DNA of 64,000 nt from Siphonodentalium dalli (lineage: Eukaryota; Mollusca; Scaphopoda; Gadilida; Siphonodentaliidae): contig CP136069.1 in assembly GCA_032622095.1 (NCBI GenBank), positions 41,950,194 through 42,014,193 on the forward strand, in the 5' to 3' direction. The position numbers were made by a program, and so were the translations under genes. Each line of letters opens with the position of its first letter. Position 1 is the stretch's first letter. Of the stretch, positions 916 through 57,229 are shown one piece after another. Under the pieces are notes generated by a model that was not told the origin of the DNA, did no database searches, and saw only the letters and a program-made list of their open reading frames with translations.

Positions 916-2755
916 CTAGCCACGTCCCTGGTCGGACAACAAAGAACTCAAGAAAAATTCTGTCAAATCAGCATCATTCATAACGTGAAAGTACCACACA
1001 AATCCTAAAAGCATTTACATTTAATACAACGAAATGGCAAGCGCAAAAGGCTCGTTAAAATTGTTTCACTTTTAACTGTCGGATAATGAAAGTATAACAC
1101 GCATTTATTGGAATTGATCGTTTGAGTTTTTAAGCGATTTTATAAAACTTTAAAAGCCTACAAAAACTGCGTCTTCGAAAGTCGATATATGTTATTGTAA
1201 ACTCTCCGCCATGTAAAGGTTTATACTTTATAGACTCGATAGCTTTATGGTCGAACATTGACTCCATAGATAGTAGTTTTATTGTGTCAAATCGAAATGG
1301 GAATCTTTAAATATTATACAATGAATTACCGAAGAAATCAAACCACGTTTCCTTTATAGTTTATATAGTCTCTATCTCTGCGAATGTAACCCTTTCATGA
1401 CGGGAGCTGCGTAGCATTAAATAACCGGTGCCAGTGCATTCTCTTATATATGCGAGTCTCACAATAATTATGTCCTAACTCCTAAATATTGTAGTGGGAG
1501 AAAATGCAATTTGAAAATTTACATTTTTAAAACTCAATTTCACCATATCTGAGCAGCCAAACTGTTGAACGTTCGTTGTATACGAATTGGGGTCACTCTG
1601 CATGGAAATAAACATAAGGTTTAACTAAAACATATTTTGGAAAAAATTTCACTGGAGATAGAACATTATTTCGAAGAAATTTGTTCCATTGCTTTCAGCT
1701 TTTTCTATTAGCACTGCTATAACATACTTTCACAGTGAGATAAACAGTGCATTATTTTATGAATGCTTGGCTCATCGTTGGATATAGAACAATGTCGTGT
1801 TGCCGTCACAGTCTGGTAGTACTCTATATTCTTATTATAATACTGTAGTAGGGACACAACAGGTAAATATATACCGAAAAAACGATTGATATACACGGTT
1901 TATATACTCTGTTAAAAACCCCAGGGAAGTCATAAAGAATTGTCTTCTGTTTTAAATTGTTAAACGCCCAGGAAAGAGTAACAATGACTGATTTGTATCA
2001 GAAGAGAATGTGACACAAGCGAACATTACTATGTGTAAGTTAAGGCTTCAAACCGCACAGCAAATATTACACGCAGTGCGTCGTGGGGAAAAACTCTAAC
2101 ATCATTCAGTCAAGTTGCGCCACTGCAACCAATTGGAAATGAGCTCGTTGGCCGTGTAAGGCTACCTTTCAAAATTCTCAATTTTAAACTATCAATTTGA
2201 AGGAAAATCCTCTATAACCAATGTATAGTACTATAGTAACACCTGTTTACCATCACAGTGTGTGAAATTTGTTCGACATATAAGTTTGATTTATATTTTC
2301 GCAGACAGTGACGATTTCAGATGGTTGGATTCATAAGCTAGATAATGCAGTGTGTGAATTTGCAAATATTTATTGTCAAACTCTCTCGACATAACTCCCA
2401 AAAAGTTTTCTTTTTTGTTTTTAAACCACCTTTTTATTTTTACATCATTAGCTCATATCTCTCATATTATGAGAGTGAACATGTGTTGTTACAGTACTGT
2501 AGCATACGTTGGTTCTAGAGGTTTCCCCATCAAATTGATAGTTTGAAAATGAGATTTGAAAATGTATAAACGGGTTTCTAGCAGACCACAGACTGCGCAG
2601 AGCTTATAACACCAACCCTGGTTAAGTTTTAGTTTAAACATATTTATTTGTCTAATTTATGTAACATATTATATATGACACAAACATTGTATATACAGAC
2701 AATGGGATTGGAGGACAAGTGCTGACTCACTTATGGGTACCCCCCTCTCCCAGTT
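916..2755. other. Unassigned AT-rich sequence with a D-element remnant
   Basis: I recognise no gene. Positions about 1391-1470 hold a truncated left end of element family D: CCCTTTCATGACGGGAGC, then the 20-mer CATTCTCTTATATATGCGAG. The rest is AT-rich, without a long open frame or a repeat I can match within the window. Confidence 0.5.
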
Positions 2756-8895: not shown

Positions 8896-8975
8896 TGGTT
8901 AACCTTTCATGACGGGCGCCACACTGCATTAAAGATCCTGTGCCAGTGCATTCTTTTATATATGCGAGTCTCCCA
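8896..8975 (+). mobile_element. Truncated D element
   Basis: GTTAACCTTTCATGACGGGC is followed by CCTGTGCCAGTGCATTC and TATATATGCGAGTCTCC. This is the left end of the D subfamily with a CCTTTCATGACGGG terminus; the second arm of its hairpin is missing. Confidence 0.65.
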
Positions 8976-34047: not shown

Positions 34048-34225
34048 TTATGGATTCTCTTATATATGTGAGTCAGATAATGTCAGATAATGCACTCGCT
34101 TACATGGTAAAGTTAAAAATATTGTTAGGCCAATGTATTCTCAAATATATGCGAGGCTCGCATATATAAGAGAAAGCATTGGCACAGGGTTTTCGAAAAA
34201 GTTCAGGAAGCTCCTGTCATGGAAG
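34048..34225 (-). mobile_element. Degraded D element
   Basis: TATTCTCAAATATATGCGAG is followed by GCTCGCATATATAAGAGAA, then GCATTGGCACAGGG and CTCCTGTCATGGAAG. This is one hairpin and the terminus of the subfamily ending in CATGA-type sequence. Confidence 0.65.
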
Positions 34226-41110: not shown

Positions 41111-41140
41111 AAGTTGCAAGATGTAAACCAGTCGTGTTAA

Positions 41141-41531
41141 CCCTTTACCCAACAAACCGGCCAAAACCGGCCAAATAAAGCTTCAACAGCCTAAAATATC
41201 TTCGGTCTGTCTCAATAGAACCATACAAATATGGATATCATTGAAACCGGCTCCTTGACCACATTGTGATAGTTACAGTCATGCCATGTGCCAATGCATC
41301 CTCTTATATATGCGAGTCGACCATAGGTCGCCTCGCATATATAAGAGAATGCATTGGCCTAAATTTTTTTTTTTTTAACACTTTTTACCATTTTTTCTTA
41401 CATTCTTTAACAATTTTATAATTTTTAATGTGTTAAGCCAATGCATTCTCTTATATGTGCGAGGCGACCTATGGTCGACTCGCATATATAAGAGAATGCA
41501 TTGGCACAGGGCCGTTCTGTTGGGTAAAGGG
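41141..41531. mobile_element. D element (piggyBac-like TTAA-type) with paired hairpins, copy 1
   Basis: TTAA 41,137-41,140 precedes CCCTTTACCCAACA; the other end is TGTTGGGTAAAGGG, followed by TTGA, a mutated TTAA. Two hairpins lie at about 41,288-41,360 and 41,437-41,508, each with the 20-mer CATTCTCTTATATATGCGAG or a one-base variant in both orientations. The second hairpin is the reverse complement of the first. An AT-rich spacer with poly-T separates them. CCC...GGG ends next to TTAA are what piggyBac elements have. It is 391 bp and non-coding. Confidence 0.88.
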
Positions 41532-41537
41532 TTGAAA

Positions 41538-41855
41538 CACAGACTCGACATCTATGCAGTACTGGGTCTGGAGTATTGGGGGGGGGGGTCTCTATTACCA
41601 CCAATAAGCGTTAGCTCTGTGTCGCTAAAAATAACTTCTACACTGAAAGCATGCAATATGACAGTTTGACAGACACCGGTATTGCGCTATTTTAGGTATG
41701 TGACGAATATACCACTGTAAAGGCATTCCAACAATCGCCTGATAGGATACATCGCTTTCCTGATAGATGTTGTGATTGGGTGACACTGACGCAATTGTGA
41801 TGGTGGTAATGGAAATCCCCCCAATACTCAGTACTTCATAGCTGTCGAGTCTGTG
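41538..41855. mobile_element. O inverted-repeat element
   Basis: CACAGACTCGACATCTATGC at the left is matched by the reverse complement of GCTGTCGAGTCTGTG at the right. Arms of about 90 bp include GAGTATTGGGGGG and ATTACCACCA. Related fragments lie near 62,030-62,085 and 63,890-64,000. The 113-codon minus-strand frame crossing it is not a gene. Confidence 0.65.
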
Positions 41856-42213
41856 ATGTAACCAGAACTGAATGCAAAGGTGCCAGACGAAGGGGAAATA
41901 ACATAGTGCAAGCGCCCCGTGATGTATTATTCTGAATAATCTCGCCATTCTGAATGACTTATTCATATGCGTTGAGAGAGAATATGTTTGAGTCGCCAGC
42001 CGTAATCATTGTTTGCATGTTAGAGAATAATAAGTATGCGGTTAGAATAAAGGTCAAGTTACCCCGGTACTCTCTGGTAGATGTGTGCACAGTTGCCCCA
42101 TACATGCCAACTGACAATTGATCTCCAATTGACCTCAGATGCAGTCATATTCACTAGCTGGTTCATTTTATAAACCAAGTATTTTATTCGGTAGCGTATC
42201 AATTCACATGGTA

Positions 42214-42319
42214 CAGTAATGCCCTAAATAATCGACTCCATAACCACAGCAGAATTATGGGTAACTTTTTTAGGATTTAGTCGGAAATATGGCTTGTTGC
42301 CATTCATCGGAAAGCTCTC
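42214..42319 (+). mobile_element. E element, left arm only
   Basis: CAGTAATGCCCTAAATAATC runs through to CATCGGAAAGCTCTC, the centre of the E palindrome, and then stops where an F fragment starts. The right arm is missing. Confidence 0.8.
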
Positions 42320-42510
42320 ACAAATAAGCCAATTCACGACTGTTCAGGTGTAAGCTCTTTAACATGTGTTTTCATTGTGGCCCGTACCTTAAAACGAAAT
42401 AACGAGTATGAGCACATTATCTGCTTATATTTCAGAATCAACTAATCACATTATGTACCTATTTCACATTATACATAGGTCGAATATGTGCATATTTGCG
42501 CAAGGATATG
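42320..42510 (-). mobile_element. F element fragment, reverse orientation
   Basis: ACAAATAAGCCAATTCACGA, GTGTTTTCATTGTGGCCCG and ATTATGTACCTATTTCACAT match the left half of F read on the other strand. The stem-loop half is absent. It directly abuts the half E element. Confidence 0.65.
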
Positions 42511-44832
42511 GTGCGCTTGTAACATACAAATTGTTTAAAATATAAACCCGGCTGTTGAATATGACGGTTGGCGTCTCGTTTGTTACTAATCGTCATGATA
42601 TACCCACGACTCTTGGGACACCGTTGGAAATGTGCATTTCAAATATACATAATAACTAGAATGCACTCAGAGAGATGGCAACGTGCGCAAAAATGTAATA
42701 AAAAATAATTAAAAAAATAATTTCACTGTATTTTACTTAATTAATTTAATTTAATTTAATTTAATGTTAGCAAAAAAAAAGACAATTACAATCTTCAATA
42801 GTTTTATTTAGGGGATAACAGTGTGGTGTTTTGTGATTTCGGAAAGGTACATGGCGAATATACTGTGGCAAATTTAGTTAATGGGCGACGACGGGTATTG
42901 TGCGAAATGTGCGGCCATAGAAAACACTCAGCCAATTCACGACTTTTTATTTTAAATTTAATGCGCGAGATAAAATATATTTCCCCAATTACCATCGCTC
43001 TTATCGTTAAAAATACTGATAAACATGAACAATTGCCACCTCAAATAGAAATAAATATGCACAACAATTAGTTTCTGCATGTACCTGATGTCTTTTTCAG
43101 ATGTTTACCACTTACAAATTGCGGTTTTGATTTTACCGCGATCTTGAAGTTGAATTGAAACAATGGGAAATTGTTTATTCAATGCGATGTATTTCACGCC
43201 GTGTCTGTCGCGGTTTCATGTCACGAAATTTGGTCAAATGATATCGAGACACTGACATTGGTAGGGTATAACGTTGTGGTGTTTTGTATTTTCTGAAAGT
43301 ACATGTATACAGGGCGAATGTACTGACTGTCAATTTTCGACAAAAGCCACATCGCTGGTTTGTTTATATAGCAACGAGCTAGTAACGGAAGTCAGTGCCA
43401 AGGGCGTAAACTCTATAATCTACTCCGTAACGTCGCCGGCATGTACTGCGTAAGGGTGACGTCATGGAGTGAAATCGGTAGGGTGACACCAACGTACGTA
43501 CCTACGAATCTGACTGATCGCCATACTGTTGCGCGAGCGCACGTAATAAGCGATGCATAACTATTATGTAGCGCATTCCACAGTAAATAAGATCGCAGTA
43601 CATTGATTACTCATCCTCGCTTAGGAGGAAGCAATCCGAGCAGCTAATGAGCGTATTAGGATTAGCATACTAACAATATCCATCGACTCCCGATCGGGTA
43701 CTCGGTTAACGGGCGAGTTACCAGCAACAAGTCTAGTGTGAGATTGAGCGTCGAAGGCAACCAACGTTTGACGATCAATGACATATATCGGGACTCGAAC
43801 ACATGCAGTGTTCACACCATGATGTTACGACGGGAGATAGACCTCCGATGAATATTACTTGACCGCTCATTTGTGTATTCTTCTTTATTACCTACGTATT
43901 CAAATAGATTCACGTGCGACGGTCGCTTCAAATAATGCATATTAGGCCAAAGAAATAGTTTGTAGTTGACCAGTTACATGTGCATGAGCTGAAATAATAT
44001 TTAGATCATGATTTGGTTCGGCGTGCGCACCACAGTGTTATATGCGATGACAAGTTGCCTGCTGATTGGCTGATTTTTGTCTGAATGTCAGCTGACATGC
44101 AATTTTGTACGCTTTGTTAGCTCGTGGTCCTATTTGTAAACAATCCAGGCAGCCATTTGGGGTACGTTCATACGCTGGCAAGTTTGCAAGGTATGTTTTG
44201 CATGCACTTTTCATCATAGAAAATCACATGGTGCCATAATATGAAAGTAAACTTGCATATAACATGCATCTTTACCAAAGCGAACGACATGAGAAATAAA
44301 ATTTCTGTAATTCAACTTGTAACAGCGCTACTGACATTTGCCTTCAAATACCTGTATGATTGACTGTTGCGAGATAATTGCACGATATTTAATGCAAATT
44401 CCGGTAGCATAGCTACAGGTGGAACTAGGGGATTTGACTTCGCATGTAGTTAGGTGTGGTACAGATGTATGTTATATGCTTGTTGCCGCTCATATTTTGA
44501 CACCATATCGTTTTCTAACACGAAAGGCCTGCAAACTATGTAAATTTGCCAGTGTAAGGGTAGTGAATAGGAAATAACTTACTTGCGTATTTCTGATGGC
44601 GAATGCATGAATGACATCGCTCAGAAATGTTCTTTTATTAACAGTTAATAACACAAAATAACGCGAAATTTAATAGGAGGGAAGAAATTAGTGTGCTTTG
44701 CATAAGGATATGTTTGAATACATGAGTAATCGTAGATTTTGCCGTTTATCCGGTGCAGATTAGCGCCCACACGGCATAACAACTGTGGTCAACAGAGTGA
44801 CCGACCTTGCAATTTTAGTAGATACAAGTAGT
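42511..44832. other. Unassigned sequence with an internal repeat pair
   Basis: Positions about 42,808-42,875 and 43,258-43,330 share GTGTGGTGTTTTGT-like and GAAAGGTACATG-like blocks. A TTTAA array lies at 42,738-42,766. A CpG-richer patch at 43,380-43,860 holds TGACGTCA (43,457-43,464) and an open minus-strand frame (43,621-43,815, 64 codons) that I cannot identify. The 82-codon frame at 42,823 is also unidentified. Confidence 0.4.
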
Positions 44833-45519
44833 AGCTGGGGTACCCGGCATTGCTGGGGTAAAGAATGATTACATATTATTAGTGCCCCTTCAAGTCATTG
44901 GAATTACGTATTAGTCACATGATGTAAACATCACATATTGCATGATAAAGCTATCTCATTATTTAAAGTTGATAATAAGCGATATTTATTGCTACTAATT
45001 AGTGTCTTTTTAATTCATCTGAGGTCAACGACTATTATTGCATGACACTCCCCGTATCAGATTAACTTTGTGCCAATTTGTCCACATATCTGCTGAGCTG
45101 ATAATAAACGCTCTTCGTCGATCATATATGTTAATATAATCGATTAGTCCCCATTTAAGTCATCTGATGTCAAAAGCGCATATCCCATGATATTTCCTGG
45201 TGACCCCTGTGTACCAATATTCCTACATATCGTTAAGCTGACAAGGAACGCTATTTAGTGCTCATATATGATATTATTGCATTTAAGTTCCCCATTAGTG
45301 TCAACGGAACCTATCAAATGGTACTCCCTGGGTTAAATTAATTATGTACACCAATTTCCAGCGACAGGGTCCAACCATCTGACGTCAATGGCACATATCC
45401 CATGTCGCTCCCCGCGTCAATTTACTCCTGTGCACAAAGTTTTAGCACCGATGGTCCTGCCGTTTGGTCCCCCATAGACGGACAGACACACACATAATTG
45501 AGTTTTATTGGTACAGATT
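44833..45519 (+). mobile_element. Q element, copy 1, with internal ~125-bp repeats
   Basis: It begins AGCTGGGGTACCCGGCATTG and ends AGTTTTATTGGTACAGATT. Between these lie about five diverged tandem units whose common phrases are ATTAGTGCCCCTTCAAGTCA, TCTGAGGTCAAC and ATAATAAACGCTC. Just before the end comes CCGTTTGGTCCCCCATAGAC and a GGACAGACACACACA stretch. Such ends resemble non-autonomous retroelement tails. The class is not established. Confidence 0.7.
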
Positions 45520-45714
45520 TAATTTATTTGTTACTGATATCTGTGGCCGCAGCTTAGACATAAAGTTATAGAGTGATTTGACATTCGACCCTCTATCGAC
45601 TAGGTAACCGTGCTTCCTATAATTAAACAATTAATTATTGTTTTCCATGATTACCGACAGTGACATGTAACATTAATACGATTGCAGAACTTTACATACG
45701 TCACCCCTCTGAGA

Positions 45715-46205
45715 ATGATTGGATTTCCGGTGTTACTGCATCAACCGATGTCCCTAGCATGGGATTTTTTTGAGGGATAACACATCCCAAACTTAGGCCA
45801 AATGTTTAACTGTTTGAAATTTCATTCCGGACACAACATTGGTTGGAGTTCTCAGACCAGAAACATAAACTCGATTTTCTGATTTTCCAAACAGTAAATG
45901 GTGAGATAATTGTTGTTTATTTTAAACCAATTTCTAATAGTTAATAATTGTCATACTTTCTCTAAATTTTTGGACTCAAATGGATACTAGCTGGACAAAT
46001 TCAAACCATAGCGAGTGTTAGGTTGGAATTTGTCAACCGTTGGAAAGCTTAAGATACCAGAAACTGTTGGCAAACATTATACCAGGGAGGATGTAAATCT
46101 AATATCATGGAATAGTTGGTCAGGTTAAGGTGGGAGCGCAGTTGGACATTTCATGTCGGACAGCCCCTCACATGAGACCACCCCCTCGCATGAAACCATT
46201 CAGTC
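45715..46205 (+). repeat. Dispersed repeat family L, copy 5
   Basis: CACAACATTGGTTGGAGTT, TTGGAATTTGTCAACCGTTG and CATTTCATGTCGGACAGCC follow the order of the other plus-strand copies, with more divergence. Confidence 0.5.
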
Positions 46206-46640
46206 ACGTGACTGCTAGCTAGTCCCGGTTTTACGAATATGGCAGTAATGACACGGAACACGAGACAAGGTGTTAATCACACTTCTTATTAATATCTCAG
46301 CAGATATATGTCCTCATTTCTAAATCAGTAATTTGATAATTATTCAATTACCACTCATCGTATAATGACGCACCCATTGGCACACATTAGCCAATTTTAG
46401 TTTCGTCGCCGACTATTAGTTAGTCATCTAGGCTTGTATGTCGATATCATGGCCATGCCACATAGCGGTCAGTTTGAGTGGTACTTAAAGATGGTCTCTA
46501 TCTCTTCCGAGCAGGTTTTCTATAAATTCCAAAATAATAGATATGGATCGACGACACCTGTCCGGAAAAGCTTCTATCAATGAATAACAATGTTATTATT
46601 ATCCATCCCTTAACTAACACCATTTCCCATTGGGCAAAAG
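46206..46640. other. Unassigned sequence
   Basis: No gene or repeat is recognised. Confidence 0.4.
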
Positions 46641-46647
46641 CCGCCCC

Positions 46648-47118
46648 GTGATAGTCCTGGAAAAAGTCATATTGGACTCCCGAAAGTCATATTGGACTCC
46701 CGACTGTACAATATCACTTTTTTATTGGGACTCCGTGACGTCACGAATTATCGGTGAAATTGTGATGCGCGCGCAACACTGTTGGATTTTAGCAGACGTT
46801 TCACTTCCGCATTGAGTTTTTTTTCCTCACTTCCGTGTTTACTTTTCCAAATCATGCTTTCTGATGATCAAAATACAGGATTTTATAGAGAATTAAGTGC
46901 CGACAAATACCAAAAATAACCACAAAAGTTTTATTCCCAAAATATGGATAAACATACAGATGGATAATAAAAATGTCATTATACAATGTTGTGTACAGTA
47001 TGAGTTTTTCTTGTATACTCGTCCAGGCTGTGGTGAAAAGTCATATTGGACTCGACACTAGCGTGTCTCGTCCAATATGACTTTTCACCACAACCTGGAC
47101 ACGTACAAGAAAAACACA
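46648..47118. repeat. Repeat with a shared 17-mer in tandem and in a long hairpin
   Basis: AAAGTCATATTGGACTCCCG occurs twice in tandem at about 46,664-46,701. The same phrase then appears in both arms of a hairpin at about 47,001-47,118, whose arms of about 57 bp start GAGTTTTTCTTGTATACTCG-like and end in the reverse complement. These may be the ends of one inverted-repeat element of about 470 bp. Confidence 0.6.
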
Positions 47119-47122
47119 TAGG

Positions 47123-47565
47123 CCGGATTCGTCATCTCAGGTTTAAACCTGGTCTACGTAAACCTCTAGGTTTAAACCGCCGTGAGTGAGCAAAATCCGT
47201 GGTTTAAACCTGAGACCGCAGGTCTAAGTGACGCATTCGTCATCTCTGGTTTAAACCTGGTCCAGCCAGACCAGTGGTTTAGCAGTAGTGTCTCTGTATC
47301 GTCGAGATAATTAAACGTACTTTCCTAATGCGGACCGCCTCGTTTTATTGATTGCGAAAATCAATAATTACGACAGCGGTCATATTTTGATTGGAAATTT
47401 ATAAGCGAGAAGCAGTCACACATATAAAGCATATGGGGATAAGTTTTTGTCAATTTTAATATTGTTTTTGCGTTTTATAAGCTTAAACCGGCAACCAAAC
47501 CATCTAATTCGGCGGTCCAGCTAAACCAGCTTTATCGAGGCTAAACTTGAGATGACGAATCCGTC
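47123..47565. mobile_element. Inverted-repeat element with TTTAAACC blocks, 443 bp
   Basis: The left end GGATTCGTCATCTCAGGTTT and the right end (reverse complement of AACTTGAGATGACGAATCCG) pair. The left third holds several GGTTTAAACC palindromes. It lies exactly next to the LINE fragment that follows, so it probably inserted in or beside that LINE. Confidence 0.7.
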
Positions 47566-47905
47566 TTTTCTTCATTGTTCACCTTCGTGCAATCTATTAC
47601 AGAAATGCGAATTGTGCCAGTCTGTCTTTTTTGACGAAATTCAACATACGATTTTGGAATGCGCGTCTCTGAACAAGACAAGAAATGATGTCTGGTATAC
47701 AATTCTTGAACAATTTGGAATTTCTTGTTTTTTTAAATTTGATGCATATACTTGTCCAAAACAATTAGAAATTTTCCTGGGAAATTTATCGGATCTACCA
47801 CTTGAAGATACAGATCTTGAGTCATATGAAGCTATTCACCTTTTCACTGTAAGTTGTGCACTCTTATGGAGAGAAGCTATATTCCGGAAAGCCAACCGTC
47901 CATAG
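47566..47905 (+). pseudogene. LINE ORF2 C-terminal fragment
   Basis: About 112 codons are open to the stop at 47,903. The Cys-His cluster CELCQSVFFDEIQHTILEC has the spacing C-X2-C-X9-H-X4-C, followed by a TRNDVW-type motif. This is the usual end of many LINE ORF2 proteins, beyond the polymerase domain. The ATG at 47,552 belongs to the adjacent inverted-repeat element, so it is not the real start. Polymerase and endonuclease are absent. Confidence 0.7.
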
Positions 47906-48398
47906 ACTCTTATTTTACACGAGAATACATAACTTAGACGTGAATTGAAATATTATGACTCAGTTATTTCTTTCTGATGCTACATTAGCTTAGCCGAGTC
48001 TGTAAATAAACACATGTGGATATATTCATAGTATTCATATCAAACTTGAAACTGACCTAATGTACGTCCATACATTTATGTGATATATATATGCGCCAGT
48101 TCTTGGTGTGCGATGCATCGATTCGGTGTCTGCGTGGGGTACATTTTTGAACCTCATGGAAAGTTCCCCATCTCGATTCATCGCCGTCAACAAATGACGC
48201 ATCAGTAGCACGAAATCGATAATAACCCATCTCTACTCCAATATTAGTCATTAATTGTCTGCGCCATCTTGTACTTTAGGATGTTCTGTATATATGTTGG
48301 GTTATCTTTATTTGTCATTTTGTTTTTGTTCAACTTTTGTATTTATTATATCAACTCTTCATGATATGGAGGATAAATAAAGATATATATATATATAC
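47906..48398 (+). repeat. LINE 3' untranslated region and tail
   Basis: Non-coding sequence follows the stop. It ends GGAGGATAAATAAAG and a short AT microsatellite (48,381-48,398), a typical retroelement tail. A different segment, about 48,050-48,245, could be a further insertion. Confidence 0.5.
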
Positions 48399-49168
48399 GT
48401 GGCGACTGCCGACTGGTGTTATCATGTCACAGTTGATTCATTCGCACGCGAGCTTTGCTCAGATATGGACATTGTTCCTAAATATATGATTTTTACAACT
48501 ATCTTGTGGTTTTTTTTGTTTGGCTTGTGGTGTTTTCTACGAATTTATTTGAAGGGTTCAACGTATTAATGTTGACACCAAAACGATGCTACTACATGAC
48601 CAGATATGATATACACATATTTTGCAATCCTAAACTTATATTGCTATATATGAGTCAAATTTGATAACTTATTTTGATGTAGAGCATGTCACAAAGCTCT
48701 ACTCTGGCTACGCCCATAAATTCCCATAATATTCTACCAGTTCAAAACCTGGGAACCATTGTGATTTTCTGCATGACGGGAAATTTATGAGATTGAAAAA
48801 AAAATCAACGCATTTAATATATTTCTTTATTAAAAGCTGTCTCTATGCATGGTTTCCCACTTCCAACAGTTCAGTGCCGCTTATGGTATGCACTCATAAA
48901 GCAAATTTCCTTTACTCTACTGGCCTCTTGGTCCAGGATTGACTCGATTATGGAGACTTTATTCAGCACCAGAGGGGCTTTGCGCACATTTCGATCATTT
49001 GAAAATTTTAATTTAAAATTTGTTTAATTAAATTTAAAACAAACAAATTTAAATTTAAATTTTAGATTTTGTTTCTTTTTAGATTCAACCCTTTACTCAA
49101 TTTAACACATTTTTTTCTTTTAAAAAATAATAATTATATTTTACTTATTTTTAAATCAAAATGTTTAA
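48399..49168. other. Unassigned, very AT-rich sequence
   Basis: Positions about 49,000-49,070 are built of TTTAAATT-like palindromes and can fold into a long AT hairpin. No gene is recognised. Confidence 0.45.
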
Positions 49169-50290
49169 AACCTAACTCCGTTATACAAAATCCGACAAAT
49201 TAGACAATACCTCGATGTAGACTCAACTAAGACATTGGTCCATGCTTTTGTCACGTCACACTTAGATTACTGTAATTCTTTACCGTATGGACTACCAGAT
49301 TACCAGTGTGATCGCCTGCAAAAAGTGCTAAAGGTTACACTGGTGTAAATGTTTTCCATAGGCCTCAGTGCTAACGTTTTAGCGTATAGTGTTGGCAATA
49401 TAAATGTTGGGTCCAAAATTTTCTTTAAATCTGAAAAATTGACATTTTGGGAAACGTTTTACACAAAAAAATCATGTCTGTCTAGCAGGGAATTCGCCTT
49501 TAAATCTTATGTTTTCGTAACTAGTGTCAGAACCGCATAAAAAAATACAGTCATATTTTAGACCACACCAAAAAATTCAAACTTCACTACAAAGGGTTAA
49601 TTCCTGTGCCAATGGTTATTTTACCTATGGGAAATCATAGGGAAGAGGTGTGATGATTTTTTTATGTGAAAAGCACACAAGGCTATTGACCAATCAGGGC
49701 CCAGTGTCTATTTTATTCTCTCCTATATATTCCTCCCGCATCCGCTAGATGTCACTCGGAACCTTATTTACACCAGTGTAACCTAAATGCTGCGGCGCCA
49801 GTTGTAGCATACACTCCTCGGCATGAACATATAACTCCAGTTCTCAAGCAATTACACTGGCTGCCAGTGGAGTATCGAATCATGTTCAAAATTATTTTGC
49901 TTGTCTTCAAATTACGTAATAACATGTCACCATTGTATATACAGGATATGACCAAAGACAGAAATGTGTGTACATATGAATTACGATCTGATATTAGTAT
50001 GCTTTTGTACATTCCTTTCAACAAACAGAAAAAGTTTGGCGATAGGGCATTTTCATTTTCAGGTCCACATCTATGGAATAGCATTCCATCTCACTTGAAA
50101 ATATTCACTGATTTAAATAAGTTTAAGACTGGCCTCAAAACATATCTCTTTGATGTAGCATTTAATTCCTAGATATATGTGCATGTACATGTATTATGCT
50201 GATTAGGCAATGAGCTCGATGTAATGTAAAGCGCCGTTGAATATGTACTCATAATATTGAGCGCTATACAAATTAATTATTGTATTGTAT
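49169..50290 (+). pseudogene. L2/CR1-type LINE fragment split by an inverted-repeat element
   Basis: The left part (49,169-49,332) reads KIRQIRQYLDVDSTKTLVHA, then DYCNSLPYGLPDYQ, up to LQKVL. The right part (49,786-50,172) continues NAAAPVVAYTPRHEHITPVL, then LHWLPVEYRI and GDRAFSFSGPHLWNSIPSHL, to a stop. These are standard motifs of the end of reverse transcriptase and the C-terminus in L2/CR1-like LINEs. After the stop the tail carries GTAAAGCGCCGTTGA and GAGCGCTATACAAAT before a TTG-rich end, also typical. It is 5'-truncated. Removing the insert restores the frame exactly. Confidence 0.88.
49333..49783. mobile_element. Inverted-repeat element inside the LINE, TAAA duplication
   Basis: GGTTACACTGGTGTAAAT starts it, and its exact reverse complement ends it. 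TAAA is duplicated at 49,329-49,332 and 49,784-49,787. It is 451 bp long and encodes nothing recognisable; the 63-codon frame at 49,349 has no known motif. It has no other copy in the window. Confidence 0.88.
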
Positions 50291-50291
50291 T

Positions 50292-50412
50292 GATAATGTG
50301 ACTAAACTGCTCTCATTTTCAGCACATTATATCGACTAAATTGAGGCGATTCTAAGCAGATTATCTACCTAAAACAAGTTCAATTATAAGCAGATCATAC
50401 AGGGTTTTCGGG
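50292..50412 (+). mobile_element. F element right-end fragment
   Basis: GATAATGTGACTAAACTGCT through GAGGCGATTCTAAGCAGATT to CAGGGTTTTCGGG matches the right half of F copy 1. It joins the L2/CR1 tail directly, so one may have targeted the other. Confidence 0.65.
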
Positions 50413-50466
50413 AAAACAGGATGTATTATTATTGAATTCATGGGACAGTTTTATGGGTTATATTAA

Positions 50467-50858
50467 CCCTTTACCCAACAAACCGGCCAAAACCGGCCAA
50501 ATAAAGCTTCAACAGCCTAAAATATCTTCGGTCTGTCTCAATAGAACCATACAAATATGGATATCATTGGAACCGGCTCCTTGACCACATTGTGATAGTT
50601 ACAGTTATGCCCTGTGCCAATGCATTCTCTTATATATGCGAGTCGACCATAGGTCGCCTCGCATATATAAGAGAATGCATTGGCCTAAAAAAATTCTTTT
50701 TTTAACACTTTTTACCATTTTTTCTTACATTCTTTAACAATTTTATAATTTTTAATGTGTTAAGCCAATGCATTCTCTTATATATGCGAGGCGACCTATG
50801 GTCGACTCGCATATATAAGAGAATGCATTGGCACAGGGCCGTTCTGTTGGGTAAAGGG
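50467..50858. mobile_element. D element (piggyBac-like TTAA-type) with paired hairpins, copy 2
   Basis: TTAA at 50,463-50,466 and 50,859-50,862 flank CCCTTTACCCAACA and TGTTGGGTAAAGGG. It is almost identical to the copy at 41.1 kb along its 392 bp. The hairpins lie at about 50,613-50,685 and 50,763-50,834. The near identity suggests recent movement or recent copying. Confidence 0.92.
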
Positions 50859-50862
50859 TTAA

Positions 50863-53077: not shown

Positions 53078-53298
53078 CCCTTCCATAAATGGAGCTTCCT
53101 GAAATTTTGTGAAAACCCTGTGCCAATGCATTCTCTTGTATAGGCGAATCTACCGTATGGAGCCTCACATATATAAGAAATTACATTGGCCTAACGATAT
53201 TTACCTTGACATTGTAAGCCAGGGCTTGTCTCATGTATGCGAGGCTCTCTATACATATGATTTTTAATTCTACACCAGCGCGACCGGCCATGAAAGGG
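53078..53298. mobile_element. D element, second subfamily, diverged
   Basis: TTAA at 53,074-53,077 and 53,299-53,302 bound CCCTTCCATAAATGGAGC and GGCCATGAAAGGG. One hairpin is still readable (GCCAATGCATTCTCTTGTAT against ATATATAAGAAATTACATTG); the second is degraded. It is 221 bp long. Confidence 0.8.
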
Positions 53299-55204: not shown

Positions 55205-55412
55205 CATTCTCTTATATATGCGGATGGGGCCCGCGCATATATAAGAGAATGCAATGGCTTACAACGTCAATGTAAATATTGTTAGGCCAATTTATTTTCT
55301 TATATATGCGAGGCTCCCTATCGGAGACTCGCATATATGTATAAGAATTCATTGGCATAGGTGTTTCGCAACAAATACAATCAGGAAGCTCCAGTCATGG
55401 AAGGGTGTCAAC
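55205..55412 (-). mobile_element. D element, second subfamily, left end lost
   Basis: Two hairpins remain, with ACATTCTCTTATATATGCGG opposite CGCATATATAAGAGAATGC, then TATTTTCTTATATATGCGAG opposite its partner. The right end is GAAGCTCCAGTCATGGAAGG. The left terminus is missing. Confidence 0.7.
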
Positions 55413-55419
55413 CCTTTAT

Positions 55420-55710
55420 TCAGAAGGTCCGATACTCCGAAAGTCCCATATTACGAAGGTCAAATACACCGAATGTCCCATATTACGAAGGTACAGTACT
55501 CCGAAGGTCCTATATTGCATTTGCAAGACCCAATAATCCGACTGTCCGATACTCCGAATGTTTGATACTCCGAAGGTCCGATACTCCAAATGTCCGATAC
55601 CCCGAAGGCCCAATAGTCCGAAGATCCGACACTACGAAGGACTGATACCATATGAAGGTCCGATACTCCGAGGTCAGATACTCCGAAGGTCAGATACTCC
55701 GAAGATCAGA
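55420..55710. repeat. 16-bp minisatellite, about 17 diverged copies
   Basis: The unit is GAAGGTCCGATACTCC. Variants include GAAGGTCAGATACTCC and GAATGTCCCATATTAC. The short open frames on both strands here come from the array. Confidence 0.85.
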
Positions 55711-56213
55711 TTATTATAAGGACTGTCAATACAAAAGTCACAACTATTTTTTTGTAATTTGCCTTGAAGCGACTCGAACCTCATATTGCATGAACATGTA
55801 TGTTTTTTATGTCACGTTGCGTTGATAAAATAAGTCTATGTGTGCGTGGAATAATTATAGATACCGACCCTGTGCATTAGTCAAAAGATTCATAATTTCG
55901 AAAAGGAAATGGTTCTATTGTTCTTCGATGTCAAAGCATTCCTTGTTTGTTTTTCTGCCATCATATGGTTAGAATGAAGAGCGTTGGTCTTAAGTATGTA
56001 CGATAAATCTAACTTTGTTGACTTTCTCTCATATATATAGTATTTAGTGTAGTCAGTTAAATATTTTTTCATTTTTCATAAACAAGATTTCGTCAGTTTG
56101 CTAATTACGACACAACCCATGCGGAGATCGAAAAAGTAGACGCTAAATAAATTATATATATAACATAAAACTGTAGTACTTATAAACTGATGACTTAAGT
56201 TCAAGTGTTCAAT
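55711..56213. other. Unassigned sequence
   Basis: No recognised gene or repeat. Confidence 0.4.
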
Positions 56214-56751: not shown

Positions 56752-57229
56752 AAAGCCCCCTTTAGTTATAAATCCCCAGCGGCTAACAAATGATAAATAA
56801 CAGTCATATGAATAACCTCGATTCCCTAACATATTCATTGGAGCATTCGAGTAACTCCATTGATCTCTACAGATTTGCGCCGATATCAGAAATCGACCGG
56901 GATTACTGTACTCTTTGCACTCTTGGAGATAGGTCCATATTCTTGATTATATTGAAGTAAACCCTGTATCGTTTCCGATGGTCATTTGGGGAGATGGGGA
57001 ATTGTAACTCTTTAGTGACGGCAGCTGTTAGGGTACATCATTAAAGATACTGTACCACAGCATTATCTGACATATGCGAGTCCCCACAGAGAGCCTCGCA
57101 TATAAATTTATAAGAGAATGCACTGACTTATGGTGGGTCTAAATGTGCAAAAATTATAACAATATGTAAAAACATCGCCACCAAGAAGAAGATGGAGAAA
57201 TAGATAAATTTTGTTCTTATATTAATTAA
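56752..57229 (+). repeat. Repeat family P, copy 1, left part, interrupted by a D remnant
   Basis: It aligns with 59,067-59,440 (shared phrases TTTGCGCCGATATCAGAAAT against TTTGCGCAGATATCAGAAAT, and TAAATGTGCAAAAA). A decayed D element (about 57,008-57,130, TGACGGCAGC and ATATGCGAGTCCCC) breaks it. P is broken again at 57,229 by a Q element. Confidence 0.7.

Follow-up and report, generated by a model that had tools for sequence, protein, structure and literature searches.

What do two long palindromes do inside a short repeat that a mollusc genome carries in tens of thousands of copies? The question is raised by a 64,000-nt stretch of Siphonodentalium dalli DNA (assembly GCA_032622095.1, contig CP136069.1, positions 41,950,194 to 42,014,193; hereafter the window), in which a 392-bp element, D, occurs near 50 kb and again, as a second copy, near 41 kb (Table 1). 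The original prediction, made from the letters of the sequence, saw in D a palindrome made of two palindromes and offered two uses for it, a source of small RNAs or a structural need of transposition. The architecture is borne out and, of the two uses, the second is favoured by the TTAA/CCC ends, by the small number of shared variants in the hairpin arms and by a sister hairpin pair whose tip differs from that of D in a pair-preserving way. A role of the palindromes in cis, in the propagation of the element, is thus favoured over copy-by-copy small-RNA genes, because inserted copies decay unpaired, shared arm variants are few and the tip difference between families preserves the pairs.

D is almost certainly a non-autonomous member, that is, a miniature inverted-repeat transposable element (MITE), of the piggyBac/TTAA superfamily, since it combines TTAA flanks, CCCTTT-type ends and a very high copy number with end similarity to intact piggyBac genes resident in the same genome. 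CCC-type termini, a terminal inverted repeat (TIR) and TTAA flanks are hallmarks of piggyBac and its MITEs, for which the portion of PMC2872659 used here specifies a terminal CC[C/T]T motif and a TIR of 12–19 bp. The TIR of D is perfect and 14 bp long, and the element begins with CCC (in full, CCCT) and finishes with GGG. The 50-kb copy lies between two TTAA duplications, and the 41-kb copy between TTAA on the left (41137–41140) and TTGA on the right (41532–41535). As is usual for such MITEs, D is short, non-coding (no open reading frame (ORF) of at least 110 aa overlaps it) and present in high copy number: in the genome searched (2.23 Gb, nine contigs; all motif and hairpin counts are of exact matches only), the TTAA+TIR sequence occurs 91,621 times (45,789 + 45,832) and its reversed control not once. 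Genome loci were chosen by a pattern with TTAA at one end, so that the TTAA of that end is not independent support.

Each hairpin of D has a 3-nt loop, ATA or TAT, between arms that are 97% complementary, with a single T.C mismatch, and both present the tip T-CGACC-ATA-GGTCG-C. The two hairpins lie within an 80-nt inverted repeat, whose halves are reverse-complementary at 99% and 71 nt apart, and the second hairpin is an inverted copy of the first; the pair is placed asymmetrically in the element, 149 bp from its left tip and 26 bp from its right tip. The coordinates, the 33-nt arm length and the four occurrences of the 20-mer CATTCTCTTATATATGCGAG, two per strand, had been given correctly for the 50-kb copy, in which all four are exact, whereas the 41-kb copy has one mismatch in each of two and matches exactly in the other two. 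With up to three mismatches allowed, the window holds 18 matches to this 20-mer (mean in shuffles, 0.01); genome-wide it is found exactly 307,191 times (153,681 + 153,510), and the reversed pattern never. Hairpins with exact inner 10-nt arms number 144,688 in the genome (reversed control, 1), and those with the strict D tip 117,588 (reversed control, 0). All four 20-mers are exact in 18 of 39 further loci (L008–L046), which were retrieved via one exact D end sequence and include two flank duplicates. RNA folding of 50,600–50,840 on both strands, put forward as a check, did not give two separate hairpins as the optimum: the best single-strand fold is one stem uniting hairpin 1 with hairpin 2, at −155.4 kcal/mol on one strand and −158.9 kcal/mol on the other (z scores of −25.1 and −24.4; none of 200 shuffles was as stable on either), and the two-hairpin fold appears, at −116.6 and −118.5, when the pairing span is held to 70 nt or less.

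The lineages of D that spread apparently keep the arms, as judged from the distribution of sequence variants. Across 42 loci, 39 private variants were found in the arms (5,108 aligned bases) and 89 outside them (8,935 bases), at nearly similar rates of 0.76% and 1.0%. By contrast, the variants that recur in two or more loci numbered 4 in the arms versus 36 in the spacer and left part (Fisher P=0.012), and those shared by at least three loci 1 versus 23 (P=0.005). The test used 42 of 52 loci, eight being dropped for duplicated flanks and two as too divergent or ill aligned, and omitted the TIR (4 private variants) and the loop (1 private variant). Provided that most private variants postdate insertion and most shared ones go back to source elements, the arms would matter for copying and not for a function of the inserted copy. 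The flanks of six D copies match between 5.93–6.08 Mb and 6.38–6.50 Mb of contig C1, so that the region looks duplicated, and at about 0.73–0.92 Mb of C1 hairpin and D-end matches recur every ~14,558 bp and ~11,175 bp, suggesting large tandem arrays that contain D.

Further information comes from a sister family with CATGAC ends, in which hairpin pairs have the same layout as in D and the element ends are different. Its end sequence TTAACCCTTTCATGAC has 7,649 + 7,867 exact matches, satellite arrays counted in, and we sampled 19 such loci outside arrays (L113–L131). The right end was within reach in nine of them; an arm search found at least one hairpin in 11 and both hairpins in two (L114, L123), two hairpins, one of them decayed, were recognised by eye in L116, L125 and L131, and the remainder hold half hairpins, decayed hairpins or none. 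Five measured elements are 240–258 bp long, once 468 bp. The common tip of this family, T-CTCCC-ATA-GGGAG-C, accounts for 42 of 44 transcribed 15-nt tips, which were taken from 50 places listed (of 769; six had other tip lengths) and lean to old copies, as the rows were picked for a double arm change and at least two look like one duplicated place. Compared with the D tip, two pairs differ (T-A to G-C, C-G to A-T), while pairing and the T.C mismatch are retained. An ungapped search for sister-family hairpins suited to a covariation count yielded five full ones. Three loci (L123, L124 and L127, the last in a hairpin from which part of one arm is missing) join CATGAC ends with D-type tips, so the hairpins are common to elements with different ends, and the presence of hairpins in both CATGAC-ended and ACCCAACA-ended elements amounts to a shared core of the kind known from the CMITEs discussed below.

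Several repeats adjoin or resemble parts of this family. A 37-bp satellite of 13.5 copies (L132, C1:4326500–4327000) has a unit resembling the last bases of CATGAC elements joined at TTAA, and several places on C1 show spacings that are multiples of 37. In one CATGAC-ended locus (L126), a 79-bp unit that combines half a hairpin with spacer is repeated in tandem (4.1 copies, 100% matches). A second locus with a CATGAC end, L119, carries a near-perfect palindrome of another kind, whose arms exceed 40 nt. In the window, a 16-bp tandem repeat, degenerate and of GATACTCCGAAGGTCC type (55411–55727), adjoins a sister-family element.

These observations can be accommodated by an interpretation to which we give about even chances: the palindromes of D, a piggyBac MITE, would be subterminal sites that aid mobilisation or amplification in cis, kept in source elements and decaying after insertion. 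A resident piggyBac transposase would cut at the TTAA/TIR boundary and paste D into new TTAA sites, and the two palindromes would assist this process, in the likeliest form, by analogy, as palindromic binding sites for a dimer of the transposase's C-terminal cysteine-rich domain (CRD). They would be retained in source lineages and be free to decay once a copy has landed. As far as the sections consulted go, a palindromic 19-bp internal repeat of piggyBac is bound by a CRD dimer, and the native transposase in cells supports excision plus integration solely with asymmetric ends (PMC7351741); according to the part of PMC11707139 drawn on here, the CRDs of piggyBat likewise read a palindrome, although activity can also be restrained by subterminal sequence.

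Candidate transposases are plentiful. For the PF13843 profile, 116 of 649 candidates were scored; at least 128 matches were found, and many of these have long open frames. The 680-aa ORF of one locus (L087) has a DDE_Tnp_1_7 domain followed by a C-terminal zinc domain, zf-Tnp_2, and resembles piggyBat and piggyBac as deposited in the PDB. In one piggyBac lineage, as a separate matter, many of the PF13843 matches list a single TGA within a 562-aa frame. The exact left end TTAACCCTTT[AC] lies in 9 of 40 stretches upstream of transposase matches, and TTAACCCTTT in 6 of 11 further upstream stretches (five extending earlier ones, six at other matches); in seven downstream stretches it was found on neither strand. 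An end of this type is present at L087, L088 and L094, is absent from L093 and was not found in the downstream stretches L089–L092. The resident left ends form groups, with CCCTTTAGCCCGCAATCCGGCCGTATCCGGC in L098 and L099 and CCCTTTACCCATCACATCGGCATTTGTCGGC in L087, L088 and L094. The left end of D agrees with the former at 24 of 31 bases, with the latter at 22, with L100, a relative of L098, at 23, and with the other resident left ends at 13 to 19. CGGC at positions 18–21 and 28–31 is common to D, L087 and L098, and the CCGGCC motifs of D stand in the same register as in the left ends of L098 and L099 (CGGC in L087).

Several results weigh against a cis-acting role. The main counter-evidence is that the palindrome is absent from the transposase-gene stretches read: beside transposase genes the hairpin 20-mer was found in 0 of 6 stretches with up to five mismatches and in 0 of 40 and 0 of 18 with up to four, and its best match in L087–L094 has at least six mismatches. 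Two untranslated stretches of L087 contain no inverted repeat of at least 12 nt with arms within 120 nt, and the inverted repeats that do occur downstream of two transposase loci (one pair in L106, with 71-nt arms at 85%; eight in L110, several of 30–35 nt) differ in sequence from the D hairpin. No transposase gene with the exact ends of D was found among the stretches read, and the right end of no full-length element was reached. At 69 bp, the D palindromes greatly exceed the known 19-bp site in length; in the five measured sister-family elements the hairpins lie 30–51 bp from both tips, so that the spacing is not fixed; and the shared-variant test rests on few arm variants, with all loci except the two window copies on C1. 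One locus considered as an autonomous D was rejected: L007 (C1:6269590–6272070) has two D ends 2.4 kb apart at C1:6269628, but is a D element whose spacer is interrupted at TTTAA by an insert of ~2 kb, and shows no stop-to-stop frame above 104 aa.

The absence of the palindrome from transposase-gene stretches makes a passenger or enhancer module the chief rival. As a passenger, the paired-hairpin core would be carried by several piggyBac-type end sets without any role in mobility, its palindromy having arisen incidentally, through inverted duplication in the course of abortive transposition or template switching. Besides that absence (none of the scanned stretches holds the core), this account is consistent with a core common to families with different ends, with the joint difference of all four arms between families, as inverted duplication would give, and with the rearranged, single or broken hairpins of some D copies; copying errors alone, however, would not spare the arms as the shared variants do, and we consider it somewhat unlikely. 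More doubtful still is the proposal that the palindromic form itself, and not just its sequence, is selected during propagation, D-type MITEs requiring for their mobilisation two inverted copies of an extrudable hairpin or of a 69-bp palindromic tetramer site. On that proposal any change in the tip would have to preserve the pairs and occur in all four arms, and transfer of the two hairpins to element families with new ends would make them a portable amplification module.

Small RNAs would require that read-through transcripts form the 80-bp stem or the two 33-bp hairpins, be cut by Dicer and silence the family or the genes that carry it. The stability of the fold speaks for this possibility, as does the precedent of the Made1 MITE and hsa-mir-548 (PMC1784062, in the part cited); the behaviour of inserted copies speaks against it. 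Among 2,100 readable hairpin pairs in 35 D copies, 35 were changed on one side and none on both, and none of 21 changes in hairpin 1 was mirrored in hairpin 2. The count used 35 of 41 copies, L009, L038, L012, L040, L043 and L046 being omitted as tandem-array or flank duplicates or for poor alignability. In the strict D hairpin, one G-C pair at a CpG site was unchanged in 117,588 instances genome-wide, singly changed in 1,127 and 1,105 and doubly changed in 38, 3.6-fold above the 10.6 expected if the two changes were independent. Two unpaired changes of like kind occurred 38 and 28 times, in a control that presumes equal rates for both CpG transitions, so that uneven age or mutability accounts for the excess of paired doubles better than pairing does. 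When 20 of the 38 paired-double loci were examined, the second hairpin was readable in nine and retained the original letters at the site in all nine.

The sampled inserted copies thus decay without pair maintenance. Compensatory change that keeps the pairing, the mark of a MITE-derived microRNA, was not seen in them (0 of 2,100 pairs; 38 paired doubles against 38 and 28 unpaired), and the refuting outcome named in advance for the arms, near-neutral decay with no paired changes, is what these copies display; individual copies are for this reason not like maintained RNA genes. A small RNA of a known family was also set aside, as no Rfam family reached its gathering threshold in the window, and we consider a small-RNA source improbable. 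An initial count over all tips (769 doubles versus 109 expected) had pointed to pair maintenance and was dropped after the tips were split by type and the unpaired control was added. By subtraction, hairpins without the strict D tip show 731 doubles versus 302 expected, a figure without an unpaired control, and pairs may therefore have been maintained in the older family. Finally, arm-to-arm gene conversion or template-switch repair that keeps the four arms alike without selection would account for the same tip in all four D arms and for the 3.6-fold excess of paired doubles, but is disfavoured at the level of copies and very improbable overall, given unpaired doubles about equally frequent, hairpin-1 changes never mirrored and a second hairpin unaltered at the site wherever it was readable.

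Table 1. Positions in the window of the two D copies, their parts and sister-family remnants.
Feature	Position	Strand	Remarks
D, 50-kb copy	50467–50858		392 bp; direct sequence reading
Left TTAA target-site duplication of D (50-kb copy)	50463–50466	.	sequence
Left TIR CCCTTTACCCAACA	50467–50480	+	sequence; genome-wide TTAA+TIR count
Two CCGGCC motifs	50483–50498	+	10 bp apart
Hairpin 1	50616–50684	+	69 nt; 33-nt arms, ATA loop, one T.C mismatch
A+T-rich spacer separating the hairpins	50685–50763	.	20 variants shared by at least 2 loci
Hairpin 2	50764–50832	-	inverted copy of hairpin 1
Right TIR TGTTGGGTAAAGGG	50845–50858	-	
Right TTAA target-site duplication of D	50859–50862	.	
Second copy of D	41141–41531	+	391 bp; 97.4% identical to the 50-kb copy
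Hairpin 1 of second copy	41290–41358	+	one arm mutation
Hairpin 2 of second copy	41437–41505	-	one arm mutation
Decayed sister-family element	53078–53298	+	ends CCCTT..CATGAAAGGG, TTAA on both sides; first hairpin (53122–53190) readable
Decayed sister-family hairpin pair	55205–55361	.	blastn to D; approximate extent, hairpins alone
Decayed sister-family hairpin pair	34050–34189	.	approximate extent, hairpins alone
Decayed sister-family hairpin	57050–57130	+	
Sister-family half-hairpin remnant	1425–1458	+	
Sister-family half-hairpin remnant	8937–8970	+	

The window also contains another foldback, at 47004–47117, with 55-nt arms that are 82% complementary and 4 nt apart. With 144,688 hairpins of exact inner arms in one genome, D and its relatives provide a large natural data set on strong MITE amplification, which bears on a possible use of palindromes by piggyBac-type transposases as movable end modules; the decay of inserted copies, set against fewer shared changes in the lineages that spread, distinguishes "needed to jump" from "needed by the host".

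Among known systems, Foldback (FB) elements have whole ends formed by long terminal inverted repeats, whereas D has 14-bp terminal repeats and its palindromes are internal. The open-licence PubMed Central literature searched, including the available part of PMC9942856, yielded no piggyBac MITE with such a hairpin pair, and the 20-mer itself had no match in that literature. Interspersed palindromes also occur in MITE-like elements of Anopheles gambiae, in 6 of 32 clusters; unlike D, these are 430–1,678 nt long and have no identity to known transposons, and TTAA is not mentioned in the portion of the source cited (PMC3212995). Made1, linked to hsa-mir-548, is akin to D in being a near-perfect palindromic MITE, but is described in the cited part of its source as two 37-bp terminal repeats around 6 bp (PMC1784062), in contrast to the internal palindromes and 14-bp termini of D. 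The ends of piggyBac share with D the TTAA target and the possession of internal palindromes; in piggyBac the palindromic repeat is present in both ends, which are asymmetric, and is bound by the CRD. This repeat is 19 bp long and placed at bp 17–33 of the left end in the account excerpted here (PMC7351741), while D is non-coding and its palindromes measure 69 nt. In piggyBat from Myotis the TTAA target and the presence of subterminal palindromes, there read by CRDs, are again as in D, but, in the passages of PMC11707139 relied on, the left-end palindromes are short and imperfect, none matches on the right, and subterminal sequences restrain activity in human cells. The Acropora CMITEs, as set out in the text of PMC2872659 used here, are like D piggyBac/TTAA MITEs; they occur with CCCTTT-type ends in most families, form tandem arrays, have an internal region better conserved between families than their TIRs and probably draw their transposase from resident piggyBac-like genes. 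They are about 100 bp long, with a 75-base internal region and an estimated ~1,600 copies, and the words 'hairpin' and 'palindrom' do not occur in the CMITE text (PMC2872659); the 392 bp of D, in contrast, contain two long palindromes, and its copies number tens of thousands.

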